Assembly (NCBI GenBank): GCA_946414885.1 | Contig: CAMKQH010000001.1 | Location: 186,001-250,000 of the forward strand | DNA length: 64,000 nucleotides | Reading direction: 5' to 3' | Origin: an uncultured Lachnospiraceae bacterium | GTDB taxonomy: Bacteria; Bacillota; Clostridia; Lachnospirales; Lachnospiraceae | Shown: positions 1 through 27,123 of the stretch, piece after piece | Layout of the letters: each line of letters opens with the position of its first letter | How positions within the stretch are numbered: position 1 is the first letter of the stretch | Notes under the pieces: generated by a model | The model's database searches: none | Told to the model about the DNA's origin: nothing | What the model saw: only the letters and a program-made list of their open reading frames with translations | Made by a program: the position numbers and the translations under genes

Positions 1-1
1 T

Positions 2-754
2 TCCTATGCGGCAAACCTTGGTGAGACCATCACGGCAAAGGGGTTGAAGGATAAAATAAAGTTAAAGGCCGGTATCTTTGGCGCAGAGCCTTGGACGGAG
101 GAGATGCGCCATAACATTGAGGAGACTCTTGGGATTAAGGCGTATGACATTTATGGATTAACGGAGATTTCCGGCCCCGGCGTGTCTTTTGAATGTGAGG
201 AGCAGAAAGGCATGCACGTGCAGGAGGATCATTTCATTCCTGAGATCATCAATCCTGAGACTGGTGAAGTGCTTCCAGAAGGAGAAGTTGGCGAGCTTGT
301 ATTTTCCTGTATTACAAAGAAGGGCTTCCCGCTTCTGCGTTACCGCACCAGAGACCTGTGCTTCCTGACCCGGGAGAAGTGTTCCTGTGGACGTACGCTG
401 ATCAGAATGCACAAGCCCATGGGCAGAAGTGACGACATGATGGTAGTCAAGGGCGTCAACGTATGGCCTTCCCAGATTGAAGCCGTTTTGTTGAATTTGG
501 GCTATCAGGCAAATTATCAGATTGTTGTTGACCGTGTTGGTAACAATGATACCATTGAGGTACAGGTGGAATTGACGCCGGAGATGGCGGCGGATCCCGC
601 ATTGAACGTTGCTGACCGTCAGAAGAAGATCATCCATGGTCTGAAGAACATGCTGGGCATTCTGGTGGAAGTGAAGGTGGTTGATCCCATGACCATTCCC
701 AGAAGCGAAGGCAAGGCCAAGAGAGTCGTTGACAAGAGAGATTTGTATCGCTAA
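2..754 (+). CDS. Phenylacetate-CoA ligase family protein (3' part, cut by window start)
   Basis: The reading frame is open from the first bases of the window, so the true start lies upstream and only the last ~250 residues are seen. The visible part has the hallmarks of the PaaK branch of adenylate-forming enzymes: YGLTEISGPG (A5-type motif), RYRTRDL, a CSCGRT zinc-like knuckle, and the C-terminal stretch GRSDDMMVVKGVNVWPSQIE. Known family role: ATP-dependent activation of phenylacetate or related aryl acids to CoA thioesters in the cytoplasm. The exact substrate cannot be told. It ends 9 bp before a strong terminator, so it is the last gene of its own transcript and separate from the DUF5348 gene that follows. 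Confidence 0.88.
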   Translation, partial: SYAANLGETITAKGLKDKIKLKAGIFGAEPWTEEMRHNIEETLGIKAYDIYGLTEISGPGVSFECEEQKGMHVQEDHFIPEIINPETGEVLPEGEVGELVFSCITKKGFPLLRYRTRDLCFLTREKCSCGRTLIRMHKPMGRSDDMMVVKGVNVWPSQIEAVLLNLGYQANYQIVVDRVGNNDTIEVQVELTPEMAADPALNVADRQKKIIHGLKNMLGILVEVKVVDPMTIPRSEGKAKRVVDKRDLYR

Positions 755-1416: not shown

Positions 1417-1445
1417 TTGACTTTTGAAACACAGTTTTATAGAAT
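1417..1445 (+). promoter_or_regulatory. Promoter of the glmS-ribozyme operon
   Basis: TTGACT (1417-1422), a 17-bp spacer and TAGAAT (1440-1445) form a near-consensus sigma-A promoter. Transcription would start near 1452, about 80 bases before the ribozyme cleavage site. Confidence 0.75.
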
Positions 1446-1454
1446 TGTGATTTG

Positions 1455-1486
1455 GGAATGTCGTCAGGGCGAAGCCTTGGCGTTCC
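1455..1486 (+). other. Leader stem-loop at the expected 5' end of the ribozyme transcript
   Basis: GGAATGTC (1455-1462) pairs over 8 bp, with G-U pairs, with GGCGTTCC (1479-1486). A second 5-bp stem lies inside (1466-1470 with 1474-1478), with a 3-base bulge. No T tract follows, so it is not a terminator. It begins within a few bases of the predicted transcription start, where such hairpins often protect a 5' end. Confidence 0.5.
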
Positions 1487-1532
1487 AATACAGTAAAATG
1501 ATCTCATTCCGGCGGAGGATGGGGGGATCATT

Positions 1533-1672
1533 AGCGCCTGGACCTTAATTGGTTGACGAGGGTTGGCAGTTATCGAAAGACTCGGCGGATGCTGCCACGG
1601 CCATCGCAGGTCGTCACGAAGAAAGCAAAAAGCGGAATGAAAACCGTAACAGAGGTTCTTCGGATGCGGGAA
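1533..1672 (+). ncRNA. glmS-type self-cleaving ribozyme/riboswitch (GlcN6P-sensing)
   Basis: The segment reads like the glmS ribozyme consensus from end to end. It has AGCGCCTGGAC at the cleavage site (expected between A1533 and G1534), P1 GACC/GGTT around TTAATT, then TTGACGAGG. P2 is GGCAG/CTGCC enclosing TTATCGA and the CTCGGCGGAT pseudoknot segment. P3 is ACGGCC/GGTCGT. Then comes the A-rich GAAAGCAAAAAGCGG stretch, and a P4 closed by CCGTA/TGCGG. The Thermoanaerobacter ribozyme has the same order and very similar core bases. Known role: GlcN6P acts as the cofactor for cleavage, the downstream mRNA is then degraded, and amino-sugar synthesis falls. Here it sits 43 bases upstream of a GlmU-like acetyltransferase start and no glmS follows; the operon is acetyltransferase-nagB-glmM. 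Confidence 0.93.
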
Positions 1673-1715
1673 CAAAAATATGGATGAAACGTATCATTCA
1701 TGATAAGGAGATTTT

Positions 1716-2372
1716 ATGTATACGATTAATGATTTGTATGACTTGGATCATACTCTGGCAAAGGATTATCTTTCTCAGTTTACCTATCCCTGGGAGGCGC
1801 TGAAGGGCATTAAGGACATGATCCTTGCCCTGGGCGAGACGCTTGGTGACGATTATGAGGAGGTATCCGAGCACGTTTGGGTACACAAGACCGCAACGGT
1901 ATTCCCTTCCGCATATCTTGGCGCGCCCTGCATCATTGGACCTGAGACGGAAGTAAGACACGGAGCGTTCATCAGGGGATCAGCTTTGGTTGGCGCAAAC
2001 TGTGTGGTTGGTAACTCCGTTGAGCTTAAGAACGTAATCCTTTTTGACCACGTACAGACGCCGCATTATAACTATGTTGGCGACAGTATTCTTGGTTATT
2101 ACAGCCATATGGGCGCAGGATCCATCACCTCCAACGTAAAGAGCGACAAGCAGCTGGTTGTCGTTCACAATGGCACGGAAAAGATGGAGACTGGAATGAA
2201 AAAATTCGGCGCAATGCTGGGTGATCACGTAGAGGTTGGCTGTAATGCAGTCTGCAACCCCGGTACCGTGATCGGCAGAAACAGCAACGTATATCCCACC
2301 TCATGCGTGAGAGGCGTTGTACCCGCTAACAGCATTTATAAGAACAGCGGTGAGATCGTCGAGAAGAACTAA
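1716..2372 (+). CDS. GlmU-like left-handed beta-helix acetyltransferase (probable GlcN1P N-acetyltransferase)
   Basis: 218 residues, almost all hexapeptide-repeat left-handed beta-helix with no nucleotidyltransferase domain. It resembles the acetyltransferase half of GlmU: R87 in FIRGSA, K105 in VELKN, H117 and Y120 in HYNYVGD, and N140 in GAGSITSN stand where E. coli GlmU has R333, K351, H363, Y366 and N386. The inferred reaction is GlcN-1-P + acetyl-CoA to GlcNAc-1-P; uridylylation would need another protein. Such proteins are often labelled UDP-GlcNAc pyrophosphorylase-like, and a different acceptor sugar is possible. It is the first gene after the glmS ribozyme, with AAGGAG ahead of the ATG. 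nagB and glmM follow, which supports an amino-sugar role. Confidence 0.8.
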   Translation: MYTINDLYDLDHTLAKDYLSQFTYPWEALKGIKDMILALGETLGDDYEEVSEHVWVHKTATVFPSAYLGAPCIIGPETEVRHGAFIRGSALVGANCVVGNSVELKNVILFDHVQTPHYNYVGDSILGYYSHMGAGSITSNVKSDKQLVVVHNGTEKMETGMKKFGAMLGDHVEVGCNAVCNPGTVIGRNSNVYPTSCVRGVVPANSIYKNSGEIVEKN

Positions 2373-2404
2373 CCGGATGGGGCGTTCAAAGCCCTCCGGC
2401 ATTT
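2373..2404 (+). terminator. Weak terminator or attenuator hairpin between the acetyltransferase and nagB
   Basis: CCGGA (2373-2377) pairs with TCCGG (2395-2399), and GGGC (2380-2383) with GCCC (2391-2394), around a 7-base loop, with a two-base bulge on the 5' side. Only four Ts follow (CATTTTAAG). It begins right after the stop codon and may lower, rather than stop, transcription into nagB. Confidence 0.4.
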
Positions 2405-2453
2405 TAAGTACGGAAATTAAATAAAGCAAATTGATTAGGGAGAAAAATAGAAT

Positions 2454-3245
2454 ATGAGAGTAGTTATTCAGGATAATTACGAAAAGATGTGTAAGTGGGC
2501 TGCAAATTACATTGCAGGCAAGATCAACGCACACAAGGAAGCACGTCCTTTTGTTTTGGGACTGCCCACCGGTTCTTCACCGATCGGCGTTTACAAGGAA
2601 CTGGCCAGAATGAACAAGGCCGGCGAGGTTTCCTTCGCAAACGTGGTAACCTTCAACATGGATGAGTATTTGGGACTTCCTCACGAGCATGACCAGAGCT
2701 ACTGGTACTTCATGCACGACAACTTTTTCAATCATCTGGTGGACATGAAGCCTGAGAATATAAATATTCTCAACGGCATGACCGATGACCCTGAGGGAGA
2801 GTGCGCAAGATATGAGGAGAAGATCGCTTCCTATGGCGGCATCGACCTGTTCATGGGCGGCATCGGCGTTGACGGTCACATTGCATTCAACGAGCCTTAT
2901 ACCAGCCTTTCTTCCCGCACGGGCGTGAGAGACCTGACCACGGATACCAGAATCGTGAACAGCCGTTTCTTCGGGAATGATCCTGAGAAGGTTCCCGCAA
3001 AGGCCCTTTCCGTAGGCGTTGGCACCGTGACCGATTCCAAGGAGGTTCTGATCCTCATCAATGGTCACAACAAGGCAAGGGCTCTGGCGGCAACCGTTGA
3101 AGGCGGCGTTTCCCAGAAATGGACCTGCTCCGCACTGCAGATGCACAATGCGGCAATCCTTGCAGTTGATGAGGCGGCATGCGGTGAACTCACTGTTGAC
3201 ACATACAAGTATTTCCTGGACATCGAGAGAAAGGAGAGACTGTAA
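2454..3245 (+). CDS. nagB: Glucosamine-6-phosphate deaminase/isomerase NagB
   Basis: 263 residues against 266 for E. coli NagB, and complete. Catalytic residues are in place: D70 in NMDEYLGL, D140 and H142 in [14 protein letters not shown], and E147, plus the phosphate-binding GLPTGSSP near 36-43. The enzyme interconverts GlcN6P with fructose-6-P and ammonia in the cytoplasm. Usually it is catabolic and paired with nagA, induced by amino sugars. Here nagA is absent and the gene lies behind a ribozyme that switches the operon off when GlcN6P is high, which fits the reverse, biosynthetic direction better. The ATG follows GGGAG by 11-12 bp, and glmM starts 3 bp after the stop. Codon choice is like that of a highly expressed gene. 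Confidence 0.95.
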
Positions 3246-3247
3246 TC

Positions 3248-4594
3248 ATGGGTAAGTATTTCGGCACTGACGGCTTCCGCGGCGAGGCTAACAAGGATCT
3301 GAATTTTGAACATGCAGTGAAGATTGGCCGGTTCCTCGGCTGGTATTACGGAGCAAGAGAGGGGAAGAAGGCCAAGGTCGTGATCGGCAAGGACACGAGA
3401 AGATCCAGCTACATGTTTGAGTATGCGCTCTGCACGGGCCTGATGGCGAGTGGCGCTGATGCTTACATCATGCACGTAACCACGACTCCTTCCGTTGCTT
3501 ACATCACCAGAGTGGATGATTTTGACTGCGGCATCATGATCTCTGCATCCCATAACCCGTACTATGACAATGGCATTAAGCTCTTGAATGGCAATGGCGA
3601 GAAGATGGATGAGGAGACCATTCTGAAGGTTGAGGATTACATTGACGGCAAGATCGAGGTTCCCGTTGCGGAACGAAATGAGATCGGACGCACCGTGGAC
3701 TACGTGGCAGGAAGAAACCGTTATATCGGATTTCTGATCTCCTTGTCGAAGTACAGCTTCAAGGACGTGAAGGTTGGTTTGGACGTTGCTAACGGTGCTG
3801 CATGGCAGATCGCCCGCGGCGTGTTCGAGGCCCTTGGCGCAAAGCTCTACGTGATGAATGATAAGCCTGACGGATATAACATTAATACGGACTGCGGAAG
3901 CACGCACATTGAGCATCTGCAGAAATTTGTTGTTGATAACGGCCTTGACGTTGGTTTTGCATTTGACGGTGACGCGGACAGGTGTCTTGTCGTTGACGAG
4001 AAGGGCAACGTCGTTACCGGCGATCACGTGCTTTACATTTACGGCCTGTACATGAAGGAGCGCGGAAAGCTTCTGAACAACAAGGTTGTTACAACGATCA
4101 TGAGTAACTTTGGTCTGTACAAGGCACTGGATAAGGTTGGCATTGAGTACGAGAAGACCAAGGTTGGCGACAAGTACGTTTACGAGAACATGGTTCAGAC
4201 CGGCAACCGCATCGGCGGTGAGCAGAGCGGCCACACCATCTTCCTGAAGTATGAGACCACCGGTGACGGCATCGTTACGGCACTTAAGATGATGGAAGTA
4301 ATGCTTGCTAAGGGCAAGCCCATGAGCGAGCTCGCCGCTCCCGTGGTATTCTATCCTCAGGTGCTGAAGAATGTTCGCGTGAAGAGCAAGCCCGACGCGC
4401 AGAATGATCCTGACGTACAGGCAGCAGTGAAGAAGGTGGCAGACGAACTCGGCGATACCGGAAGAATTCTGGTTCGCGAAAGCGGTACCGAGCCCGTGAT
4501 TCGCGTGATGGTTGAGGCAGAGAGCGATGAAATCTGCGAGAAGTACGTAGATTCCGTCATCGAAGTCATCAAGGCAAAGGGGCATTTGGCATAA
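3248..4594 (+). CDS. glmM: Phosphoglucosamine mutase GlmM
   Basis: 448 residues, the normal size of GlmM. It shows all four alpha-D-phosphohexomutase landmarks: the phospho-serine loop ISASHNPYYDNGIK (S101), the metal loop DGDADR (240-245), the sugar loop GEQSGH (324-329, the GlmM form of this motif) and the phosphate loop RESGTEP (410-416). It converts GlcN6P to GlcN1P on the way to UDP-GlcNAc, peptidoglycan and teichoic acids. It starts 3 bp after nagB and ends just before a strong terminator, so acetyltransferase, nagB and glmM form one ribozyme-controlled unit. Phosphomannomutase is the main alternative, but the sugar loop favours GlmM. Confidence 0.93.
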   Translation: MGKYFGTDGFRGEANKDLNFEHAVKIGRFLGWYYGAREGKKAKVVIGKDTRRSSYMFEYALCTGLMASGADAYIMHVTTTPSVAYITRVDDFDCGIMISASHNPYYDNGIKLLNGNGEKMDEETILKVEDYIDGKIEVPVAERNEIGRTVDYVAGRNRYIGFLISLSKYSFKDVKVGLDVANGAAWQIARGVFEALGAKLYVMNDKPDGYNINTDCGSTHIEHLQKFVVDNGLDVGFAFDGDADRCLVVDEKGNVVTGDHVLYIYGLYMKERGKLLNNKVVTTIMSNFGLYKALDKVGIEYEKTKVGDKYVYENMVQTGNRIGGEQSGHTIFLKYETTGDGIVTALKMMEVMLAKGKPMSELAAPVVFYPQVLKNVRVKSKPDAQNDPDVQAAVKKVADELGDTGRILVRESGTEPVIRVMVEAESDEICEKYVDSVIEVIKAKGHLA

Positions 4595-4613
4595 TCGCAT
4601 ATGAAAGCATTCC

Positions 4614-4644
4614 ACCCCGCAGGATTTCGTCCTGCGGGGTTTTT
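4614..4644 (+). terminator. Strong terminator of the ribozyme operon
   Basis: A perfect 11-bp GC-rich stem (4614-4624 with 4630-4640), loop TTTCG, then a run of Ts. It lies 20 bp after the glmM stop codon. Confidence 0.95.
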
Positions 4645-4724: not shown

Positions 4725-4820
4725 AAGAAAACATTACAAGAAATATTCAAGGTTGCCACATTGGTTTGAAGGAGTTTTGAAAAGATCGCTTGGTGACGTT
4801 GGAAAGTGGAGGAGCGAAAG

Positions 4821-6461
4821 ATGCCGGTTACGGACTTATTGGAACGAAATCATAAGTTATACGGGGATGAGGTGGCGCTGGTGGAATTGAACCCCAGCAT
4901 GCCTGACACAAGAAAGACGACTTGGAAGGAGTACGACTTGGTACAGCCGACAAGTTCCACGCCTTATCGCCGTGAGATCACTTGGAGCATTTTTGACGAG
5001 AAGGCAAACCGCGTGGCAAACATGTTGCTGTCCCGCGGCATTCAAAAAGGGGACAGAGTGGCCATCCTGATGTTTAACTGTCTGGAGTGGCTTCCCATTT
5101 ACTTTGGCATTTTGAAGACTGGTGCCATCGCAGTACCTTTTAATTTCCGCTTTGCGGCAGACGAGATTCAGTACTGCGCCGACCTTGCGGAGGTACACGT
5201 GCTGTTCTTTGGTCCTGAGTTTATCGGCCGTATCGAATCCATTGAAGAAAAGCTCAGCAAGGGCAGACTTCTCATCTACGTGGGCGACGGATGTCCCACG
5301 TTTGCGGAGAGCTATCGTGAGCTTGTGGCGGACTGCTCCAGCCAGGCACCTTTGGTACGTCTTGAGGAAGAGGATGACGCTGCGATTTATTTTTCTTCAG
5401 GTACCACGGGCTTCCCGAAGGCAATCTTACATAATCATGAGAGTTTGACGCAGGCGGCTCAGATGGAGCAAAAGCACCATTTGACGGGTCGGGACGACGT
5501 ATTCCTTTGCATTCCGCCCCTGTATCATACCGGTGCGAAATTCCATTGGATGGGAAGTCTTTGTGCAGGAAGCAGGGCCGTTCTCTTAAAGGGAACCTCG
5601 CCTGAGATCATTCTGGACGCCGTTTCCAAGGAGCATTGTACCATCGTTTGGCTCCTGGTACCCTGGGCGCAGGATATTTTGGAAGCGCTGGATCGCGGCG
5701 ACTTAAAGCTTTCGGATTATCAGCTCGATCAGTGGAGACTGATGCACATTGGCGCACAGCCCGTTCCGCCTTCCCTGATCAAGCATTGGAAGGAATATTT
5801 CCCGAATCATGCATATGACACGAACTATGGCCTTTCCGAGTCCACCGGCCCCGGTTGCGTGCATCTGGGCATTGAAAACATTCACAAGGTAGGTGCCATC
5901 GGCGTACCCGGTTATCGCTGGAAATGCAAGATCGTGGATGAAAACGGCGAGACCGTAAAGCAAGGAGACGTGGGCGAGCTTTGCGTGAAGGGCCCTGGCG
6001 TCATGACTTGTTATTACAACGATCCCAAGGCAACGGCAGAGACCTTGAAGGACGGTTGGCTCTATACCGGAGACATGGCAATGCAGGACGAGGATGGCTT
6101 CATCTTCCTGGTAGACCGTAAGAAGGACGTGATCGTCAGCGGCGGTGAGAACATTTATCCCGTTCAGATCGAGAATTTCCTCGCGGCATATGACAAGGTC
6201 AGCGACGTGGCAGTAATCGGACTTCCCGACAAGAGACTTGGTGAAATCACCGGCGCGATTATCCAGATCAAGGATGGCATGACCTGCACGGAAGAGGAGA
6301 TCGAAGAATATTGCAAGGGCCTTCCCCGTTACAAGAGACCGAAGAAGATCATCTTTGCGGACGTGCCCAGAAACGCTACCGGTAAGATCGAGAAGCCTGC
6401 ACTGCGCAAGAAATACGGTGCGGAATATCTGGTTGCCCAGCAGAATGAAGTAGAGGCATAA
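4821..6461 (+). CDS. AMP-forming acyl-CoA synthetase (class I adenylate-forming ligase)
   Basis: 546 residues. The adenylation core carries the AMP-binding P-loop FSSGTTGFPK (191-200), YGLSESTGPG (A5), GWLYTGDMA (A7), DRKKDVIVSGGENIYP (A8) and the catalytic lysine in RNATGKIEK near the C-terminus. It therefore activates a carboxylic acid through an acyl-AMP to a CoA thioester; the acid is unknown (medium-chain, aryl or crotonobetaine-like are all possible). An in-frame GTG at 4806 also exists, but it overlaps the GTGGAGGAG ribosome site, which is correctly spaced for the ATG at 4821, so the ATG is chosen. It is monocistronic: it has its own promoter and a terminator follows. Confidence 0.88.
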   Translation: MPVTDLLERNHKLYGDEVALVELNPSMPDTRKTTWKEYDLVQPTSSTPYRREITWSIFDEKANRVANMLLSRGIQKGDRVAILMFNCLEWLPIYFGILKTGAIAVPFNFRFAADEIQYCADLAEVHVLFFGPEFIGRIESIEEKLSKGRLLIYVGDGCPTFAESYRELVADCSSQAPLVRLEEEDDAAIYFSSGTTGFPKAILHNHESLTQAAQMEQKHHLTGRDDVFLCIPPLYHTGAKFHWMGSLCAGSRAVLLKGTSPEIILDAVSKEHCTIVWLLVPWAQDILEALDRGDLKLSDYQLDQWRLMHIGAQPVPPSLIKHWKEYFPNHAYDTNYGLSESTGPGCVHLGIENIHKVGAIGVPGYRWKCKIVDENGETVKQGDVGELCVKGPGVMTCYYNDPKATAETLKDGWLYTGDMAMQDEDGFIFLVDRKKDVIVSGGENIYPVQIENFLAAYDKVSDVAVIGLPDKRLGEITGAIIQIKDGMTCTEEEIEEYCKGLPRYKRPKKIIFADVPRNATGKIEKPALRKKYGAEYLVAQQNEVEA

Positions 6462-26803: not shown

Positions 26804-26829
26804 ATAGCAAGTTTCATAGAGAAGAGTAA

Positions 26830-27020
26830 TTGGTGCCGGCGGAGAAGTCCTTTTTCTCCAAGGGTTAAAAGGGAAGCGGGTGTGATTCCCGCACGATCTC
26901 GTCACTGTGATAAGGGAGTGGGAGCGTCAGGACTCTTTTGCATAAGGAGTCAGTCACTGATCCGATGGATTGGGAAGGCGACGCGTCTGCAATGATCTTT
27001 CAGCCAGGAAACCTGCCAGT
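26830..27020 (+). promoter_or_regulatory. Cobalamin (adenosylcobalamin) riboswitch
   Basis: The classic landmarks are in order: an opening TTGGTGCCGG, then GGGAAGCGGGTGTGATTCCCGC, the CACTGTGA turn (26913-26920), a long peripheral arm, and GGGAAGGCGACG. Last comes the B12 box AGCCAGGAAACCTGCC (27002-27017). Binding of cobalamin in this class folds the downstream RNA into an off state. Downstream lie a hairpin CTTAG/CTAAG (27077-27104) and a terminator, so control is probably by premature termination. The genes behind it are a cobaltochelatase, a corrinoid-type ABC transporter and the cobalamin pathway. Confidence 0.96.
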
Positions 27021-27123
27021 TATAATGGTACGGGAAGAAATTCCAGATCACGAGTAATTGGTCGTATCGAGAGGAAACCGTCTTAGGAGAAAAAACTAAG
27101 AAGGTCTAATTTTGATGTGAATG

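Follow-up and report, generated by a model that had tools for sequence, protein, structure and literature searches.

A glmS ribozyme ahead of NagB suggests possible synthesis of cell-wall amino sugar directly from ammonia in some gut and rumen bacteria

A 64,000-nucleotide stretch of an uncultured Lachnospiraceae genome (assembly GCA_946414885.1, contig CAMKQH010000001.1, positions 186,001 to 250,000; hereafter the window) carries, between its positions 1417 and 4644, a glmS ribozyme followed by an operon that encodes a stand-alone acetyltransferase (AcT), the glucosamine-6-phosphate deaminase/isomerase NagB and the phosphoglucosamine mutase GlmM. The placement of this ribozyme ahead of NagB, which recurs in related genomes, raises the possibility that ammonia feeds straight into the making of cell-wall amino sugar in these bacteria. 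We consider it reasonably probable that NagB serves here as an ammonia-fed synthase of glucosamine-6-phosphate (GlcN6P), pulled forward by GlmM and AcT, feedback-limited by the ribozyme and working beside GlmS. The features of the operon are as follows.

1417-1445, + strand: promoter-like site TTGACT-17-TAGAAT, a consensus match only (10 of 12 letters)
1522-1672, + strand: glmS ribozyme (RF00234), from the Rfam covariance model, core conservation and covariation; predicted self-cleavage at 1533/1534
1716-2372, + strand: AcT, a stand-alone left-handed beta-helix protein, GlmU-type glucosamine-1-phosphate N-acetyltransferase, from profile and structure matches
2454-3245, + strand: NagB, glucosamine-6-phosphate deaminase/isomerase of a distinct clade with an altered N-acetylglucosamine-6-phosphate (GlcNAc6P) site, from TIGR00502
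3248-4594, + strand: GlmM, phosphoglucosamine mutase, from TIGR01455
4614-4640, + strand: terminator-like hairpin of 12 pairs (8 G-C) with a T tail at the operon end, from its pattern only

Results

The leader carries a conserved glmS ribozyme

An earlier note on this DNA had placed a glmS ribozyme at 1533-1672, and the Rfam model RF00234 bore this out with a plus-strand match at 1522-1672 that spans the full model (positions 1-167), scores 64.3 bits against a gathering threshold of 37 (E 1.7e-12) and retains the core and the paired helices P1 and P2. No other RF00234 match at E 0.001 occurs in the genome of the window (G000; 3.80 Mb in 51 contigs, 97.46% complete). The RNA does not lie in the 5' leader of glmS, which is found on another contig; the next gene is that of AcT, whose start at 1716 is 44 bases past the ribozyme end, followed by those of NagB and GlmM. 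Cleavage between A1533 and G1534 would agree with the cleavage site of the glmS ribozyme class, both nucleotides being present in all 45 distinct NagB-linked copies of the ribozyme, and GlcN6P-dependent self-cleavage of the leader RNA is predicted. Ribozyme cores were identified by Rfam scoring, a loose regular-expression search having proved too noisy away from the operon; the folding energy of the ribozyme alone was not apart from that of shuffled sequences (z -1.16).

In 40 glmS-linked copies, 39 columns reach a conservation of at least 95%. Of these, 30 hold at 90% or above in the 45 distinct NagB-linked copies, and 26 are identical in every one of them; the lost columns lie mostly in the 3' periphery, and two columns at the core edge are also free. 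Covariation was assessed at 12 pairs taken from the structure of the window RNA, in an alignment of 42 copies that includes the window and leaves out four of the 46 NagB-linked copies. Changes on both sides occur at eight of the 12 pairs, with 99% of cells paired, and the cells changed on both sides number 59 versus 15.4 in shuffles and 0-9 in slid versions, counts that can be inflated by related sequences. A weaker measure gave 16 further pair types versus 13.6, a level reached by 21 of 500 shuffles. Judged from these substitution patterns, the NagB-linked ribozyme RNA is under selection.

The ribozyme recurs at the head of NagB units

Of 584 loci confirmed in a named-genome scan with NagB, 80 were taken up. 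Most of the 80 carry metagenome-bin titles, many of which name the ruminant gut. Their taxonomic labels span several orders and reach further still; misbinned contigs may account for some, such as Spirochaetales or Flexilinea. Whole genomes, nearly all of them bins, were searched for 50 of the 80 loci (L089-L138), one of them, G278 (L117), being a genome that recurs as G234 in the family sample described below; 17 of the other 30 were scanned as loci, and 13, including L088, were not scanned that way. RF00234 matched in 36 of these 50 clade genomes, 35 of them over the cut-off. The ribozyme stands directly ahead of the NagB unit in 35 (34 over the threshold, and L133 at 36.4 bits) and ahead of glmS instead in G296. 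The locus scan added two more ribozyme-NagB loci, L144 and L151.

Behind the ribozyme at these 37 loci, some of them cut by contig ends, the gene orders are NagB-AcT-GlmM (20), NagB alone (7), AcT-NagB-GlmM (3), AcT-GlmM-NagB (2), NagB-GlmM (2), NagB-AcT (1), AcT-NagB-GlmM-GlmS (1) and GlmM-NagB-GlmS (1), such that the ribozyme holds the first position through differing arrangements. In L131 (38.0 bits) and L151 (55.6 bits), NagB and GlmS share a single ribozyme at the head of the unit. G291 carries a pair of ribozymes: one lies about 30 bases in front of glmS, the other about 22 bases in front of a NagB gene with unrelated open reading frames (ORFs) behind it. The link of the ribozyme to the NagB unit is firm. 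Ruminococcaceae bacterium P7 (G276, L115), one of the 80 not titled as a bin and so probably cultured, has a ribozyme-NagB operon and also two glmS genes over the cut-off (L188, L189), neither of which shows a ribozyme over the stretch scanned; NagA gave no match in it at E 0.001.

A sample not selected by NagB, comprising 250 genomes of the same family as the window, gives a second view, in which the ribozyme count is a lower bound owing to stricter filters and at most 10 scored candidates per genome. At least 49 of these genomes carry RF00234, 40 times ahead of glmS and nine times ahead of a NagB-containing unit; none of the 49 ribozymes lacks both glmS and NagB in the unit behind it. The earlier note had argued that feedback by GlcN6P makes sense for a biosynthetic NagB and none for a catabolic one, and the argument gains from this count, each of the 49 units holding a candidate GlcN6P-forming enzyme, GlmS (40) or NagB (9). 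The contexts were read from the DNA around 48 ribozymes and the window, and gene orders were assigned by tblastn, as longest-ORF annotation had mislabelled some operons.

Some NagB occurs in 149 of the 250 family genomes. In nine it is at least 86% identical to that of the window, the next best being 47%, and these nine are exactly the ribozyme-NagB genomes (ribozyme in 9/9 versus 40/241, p 2e-7, kinship ignored). All nine also have a GlmS match (E at most 1.1e-195), and in G230 the end of glmS lies about 140 bases before the ribozyme of an AcT-NagB-GlmM unit. Across the whole family sample, NagB is present in 15 of 17 genomes without GlmS versus 134 of the 233 others (p 0.009, kinship ignored), GlmS-less here meaning that any match was no better than E 1e-16 or that there was none at all; the comparison takes in GlmS and NagB only. 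The two exceptions, G146 and G199, are 68-70% complete.

The operon encodes hexosamine enzymes, with NagB of a distinct clade

Profile searches upheld the set of enzymes proposed in the earlier note, namely a GlmU-type acetyltransferase, NagB and GlmM. NagB scores 377.7 bits with TIGR00502 (equivalog cut-off 236.9) and GlmM 547.2 bits with TIGR01455 (cut-off 447.55). AcT has a hexapeptide/GlmU-type fold and aligns with GlmU-type enzymes of archaea and bacteria over their C-terminal part, its nearest solved chains being 5z09 and 2ggo, named as sugar-1-phosphate nucleotidylyltransferases; it is not a bifunctional GlmU, matching TIGR01173 over model positions 302-433 only and at 51.3 bits (cut-off 366.85). 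A match to AcT is found in 243 of the 250 family genomes, so that a stand-alone acetyltransferase is nearly universal in the family, and no bifunctional GlmU over the cut-off was found in the 26 family genomes tested; AcT is therefore most likely the ordinary glucosamine-1-phosphate acetyltransferase of the family. The operon is most likely anabolic, with NagB placed among core cell-wall enzymes.

The catalytic positions of NagB, which we take to be 72, 141, 143, 148, 172 and 208 (5hj5 numbering), are as in 5hj5 and are kept in all 80 clade NagBs. The situation differs at positions 151, 158, 160 and 161, which we assign to the allosteric GlcNAc6P site: the window NagB has the changes S151T, R158G, K160R and T161D, with Tyr254 kept, and thus departs from the allosteric type. 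Ser151, Arg158 and Lys160 of 5hj5 are replaced by Thr, Gly and Arg in all 80 clade members, and position 161 varies. This altered site predicts insensitivity to the catabolic activator GlcNAc6P. The changes were also considered as a mark of ribozyme-linked NagBs, an idea that was rejected as those at 151, 158 and 160 are common to the entire clade. Ordinary NagBs of the family, read at 18 of 20 loci, have yet another sequence at the site. PMC4008608 names Lys160 and Tyr254 for the GlcNAc6P site.

The positions of the promoter-like site and the hairpin fit the operon bounds of the earlier note; neither type of site is enriched in the region (three promoter-like sites versus a mean of 4.3 in shuffles, and two terminator-like sites versus 3.0). 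An antisense ORF of 516 amino acids over GlmM was taken as a shadow frame. A DUF5348 protein is encoded just upstream of the operon (936-1382), and the genes of two different AMP-binding proteins of acyl-CoA ligase type (window 1-754 and 4806-6461) flank the region. In the near relative L088, labelled as a Lachnospiraceae bin from sheep rumen, the DUF5348 protein is 93% identical and the operon proteins 98-100% (NagB 100%, GlmM 98%). Elsewhere in the window, a Cobalamin riboswitch (26814-27034, 91.4 bits) precedes the genes of a CbiK-like chelatase, which has a NEAT-domain match below the cut-off, and of a periplasmic binding protein, together with a permease-like ORF.

GlmS and NagA in the window's genome

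The earlier note was right that the operon lacks glmS. Its suggestion that the operon might replace GlmS fails for this genome, because a complete glmS is present on contig C11 (14943-16784, 762.5 bits); the 2 kb surrounding its start yielded no glmS ribozyme, not even with E relaxed to 5. The NagB of the operon is the single NagB-family gene of the genome, and no nagA, which a catabolic nagAB pathway would call for, was found with TIGR00221 at E 0.001 in this 97.46% complete assembly. The combination that the note had named as speaking against a biosynthetic operon, a separate glmS with its own ribozyme together with nagA, was hence not seen. Its overall reading stands as regards the ribozyme, the enzymes and the sign of the feedback, and falls as regards the replacement of GlmS here.

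Possible transfer and parallel recruitment of NagB

In 15 genomes (the window's and 14 hand-picked from the 36 clade genomes with GlmS over the cut-off), NagB identity exceeds GlmS identity in all 105 pairs, with medians of 88% versus 52%. This gap is supportive of horizontal transfer of the NagB unit and is not proof of it, as the GlmS proteins may be of two types. A genome of the same genus as the window's, G022, has neither a ribozyme match nor a NagB match. No carrier of the module was found in a plasmid collection, where 23 records match partly at 60-80% identity and none over 80% of the query, or in a phage collection, where NagB matches 36 records at 64% identity at best.

Other NagB proteins occupy similar operons. 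G096 and G212 have an ordinary-type NagB, 41% identical, between GlmM and AcT, and G096 (L174), 99% complete, is without a GlmS match; G079 (L183) and G193 (L184) have GlmM-AcT-NagB-GlmS clusters whose NagB-like protein is 35% identical and has Gln at the position of Lys208. Taken with the clade, these cases would fit a hexosamine pathway fed by ammonia and spreading horizontally among rumen and gut bacteria, in which NagB is the physiological GlcN6P synthase under the glmS ribozyme, replacing or joining glmS, in which GlmS is dispensable in some lineages, and in which the NagBs of G096 and G212, and possibly those of G079 and G193, entered operons of this kind by independent recruitment. We see this wider proposal as evenly balanced.

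Discussion

In the mechanism that we propose, NagB would form GlcN6P from fructose-6-phosphate (Fru6P) and free ammonium, GlmM would convert it to glucosamine-1-phosphate, and AcT would acetylate the latter with acetyl-CoA to N-acetylglucosamine-1-phosphate, a step that would pull the readily reversible NagB reaction forward. Sensing of GlcN6P by the 5' ribozyme would cleave the leader and, through presumed decay of the cleaved mRNA, lower expression of the unit, which amounts to negative feedback if NagB is the supplier. The window's genome would thereby have a NagB route beside a glutamine-dependent GlmS without a ribozyme, a pair that may resemble glutamate dehydrogenase versus glutamine synthetase/glutamate synthase, the one suited to high ammonia and sparing glutamine, the other to low ammonia. 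In PMC11593775, the NagB equilibrium constant is given as 0.2 M and the reaction as easily reversible; by simple arithmetic, 10 mM ammonium would then hold GlcN6P at about 5% of Fru6P, a level useful only with the pull of GlmM and AcT, which would explain the shared operon.

The biosynthetic direction of NagB is likely from what the genomes contain. It is favoured by the sign of the feedback and likewise by the company that NagB keeps in the operon, its joint control with glmS, the parallel recruitment, and the lack of nagA both in the window's genome and, over the cut-off, in 22 of the 35 ribozyme-NagB genomes, as well as by the seven of these 35 in which no GlmS was found.

A number of observations weigh against an aminating NagB. 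Besides the complete glmS of the window's genome, GlmS over the cut-off is found in 36 of the 50 clade genomes. It was not found in 11 (bins whose completeness is not given), seven of which are among the 35 with ribozyme-NagB units, and only as fragments in three more. NagA is present in nine of these 11 versus 12 of the 39 others (p 0.004), which makes salvage of N-acetylglucosamine (GlcNAc) a real alternative and weakens the idea, which we had entertained, that a missing GlmS proves replacement by NagB. At the locus itself, the ribozyme is without a match in 15 of the 50 clade genomes (some lie near a contig end), some relatives adjoin glycoside hydrolase or phosphotransferase system genes, and the altered GlcNAc6P site also occurs in NagBs without the ribozyme. 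AcT and GlmM, moreover, consume GlcN6P, and their repression by their own substrate is sensible only if NagB is its main source. As to the literature, Gram-positives are reported to have a non-allosteric NagB as a rule (PMC9812318), and the NagB of Akkermansia is described in PMC5902328 as having a Km for NH4 of 41 mM and being unable to form GlcN6P at physiological conditions, the organism needing GlcNAc or N-acetylgalactosamine.

Some of these points would be expected if NagB were a bidirectional buffer near the GlcN6P/Fru6P equilibrium, forming GlcN6P at high ammonia and removing it when amino sugars are supplied, with a ribozyme that trims the pathway and guards no committed route. The easy reversibility of the reaction (PMC11593775), the frequent presence of GlmS in the clade and in the window's genome, and NagA over the cut-off in 13 of the 35 ribozyme-NagB genomes are in line with such a role. 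We nevertheless find it rather unlikely, as GlcN6P-triggered loss of a GlcN6P-removing enzyme would make for a poor buffer and as the other 22 genomes have no NagA over the cut-off. A catabolic NagB, used for glucosamine or GlcNAc, would leave GlmM and AcT as the real targets of the ribozyme and the GlmS-less genomes on GlcNAc salvage. This would accord with the usual direction of NagB, with the Akkermansia precedent and with the NagA of nine GlmS-less clade genomes. It is opposed by nine units in which the ribozyme heads NagB without AcT or GlmM (seven of 37 in the scan, two of 49 in the family sample), some of them cut by contig ends and the case being clear in G291; by the finding that none of the 49 family ribozymes heads AcT or GlmM without NagB or GlmS; by a feedback of the wrong sign; and by the failure to find nagA in the window's genome, all of which renders it improbable in our judgement. 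Even harder to sustain is the notion of a non-functional ribozyme, a relic that came in with a transferred block of genes and controls nothing. The 3' periphery is indeed less conserved than in glmS-linked copies, and seven of the 35 matches mapped to the loci stay at 36-45 bits, but the invariant core columns, the pairs changed on both sides and the first position kept across different gene orders all make this very improbable.

If NagB is the ammonia-fed synthase that we favour, cell-wall synthesis in ammonia-rich habitats would have an entry that needs no glutamine, annotations as catabolic nagB would have to be corrected in these genomes, and some seemingly GlmS-less genomes would be explained. 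In a number of gut and rumen bacteria, the regulon of the glmS ribozyme includes a second enzyme, NagB, and the ligand of the ribozyme supplies a logical test of the direction of NagB. All but two of the known glmS ribozymes were reportedly in glmS mRNAs (McCown et al. 2011), and the present case could be foreshadowed by the two exceptions. Among the matches listed in a literature search, themselves seen as excerpts, no paper reports a glmS ribozyme ahead of nagB. The ribozyme is commonly described as a one-gene switch and is pursued as an antibacterial target (PMC10594590).

Comparison with known systems

The system shares with the Bacillus subtilis-type glmS ribozyme-glmS regulon (RF00234) the ribozyme class, its conserved core, its place in a 5' leader, the presumed ligand and negative feedback on GlcN6P supply; it differs in that the ribozyme heads the genes of NagB, AcT and GlmM, whereas the glmS of the window's genome is without one. 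The window NagB is over the cut-off of the E. coli-type catabolic NagB (TIGR00502) and keeps its catalytic residues, but is changed at 151, 158 and 160 and lies with GlmM and AcT, in a genome where no nagA was found. Akkermansia muciniphila, without GlmS, resembles some clade genomes in having NagB as the only enzyme between Fru6P and GlcN6P, although its NagB is reported to be unable to supply GlcN6P physiologically (PMC5902328). A functional likeness is offered by the NagB-family enzyme of Giardia, which, according to PMC4281351, forms GlcN6P efficiently out of Fru6P and ammonium and does not respond to GlcNAc6P. Giardia is a eukaryote whose enzyme ranges from monomer to tetramer and for which the excerpted passages report no ribozyme, while the same direction of reaction for the window NagB is proposed here from its genes and leader.

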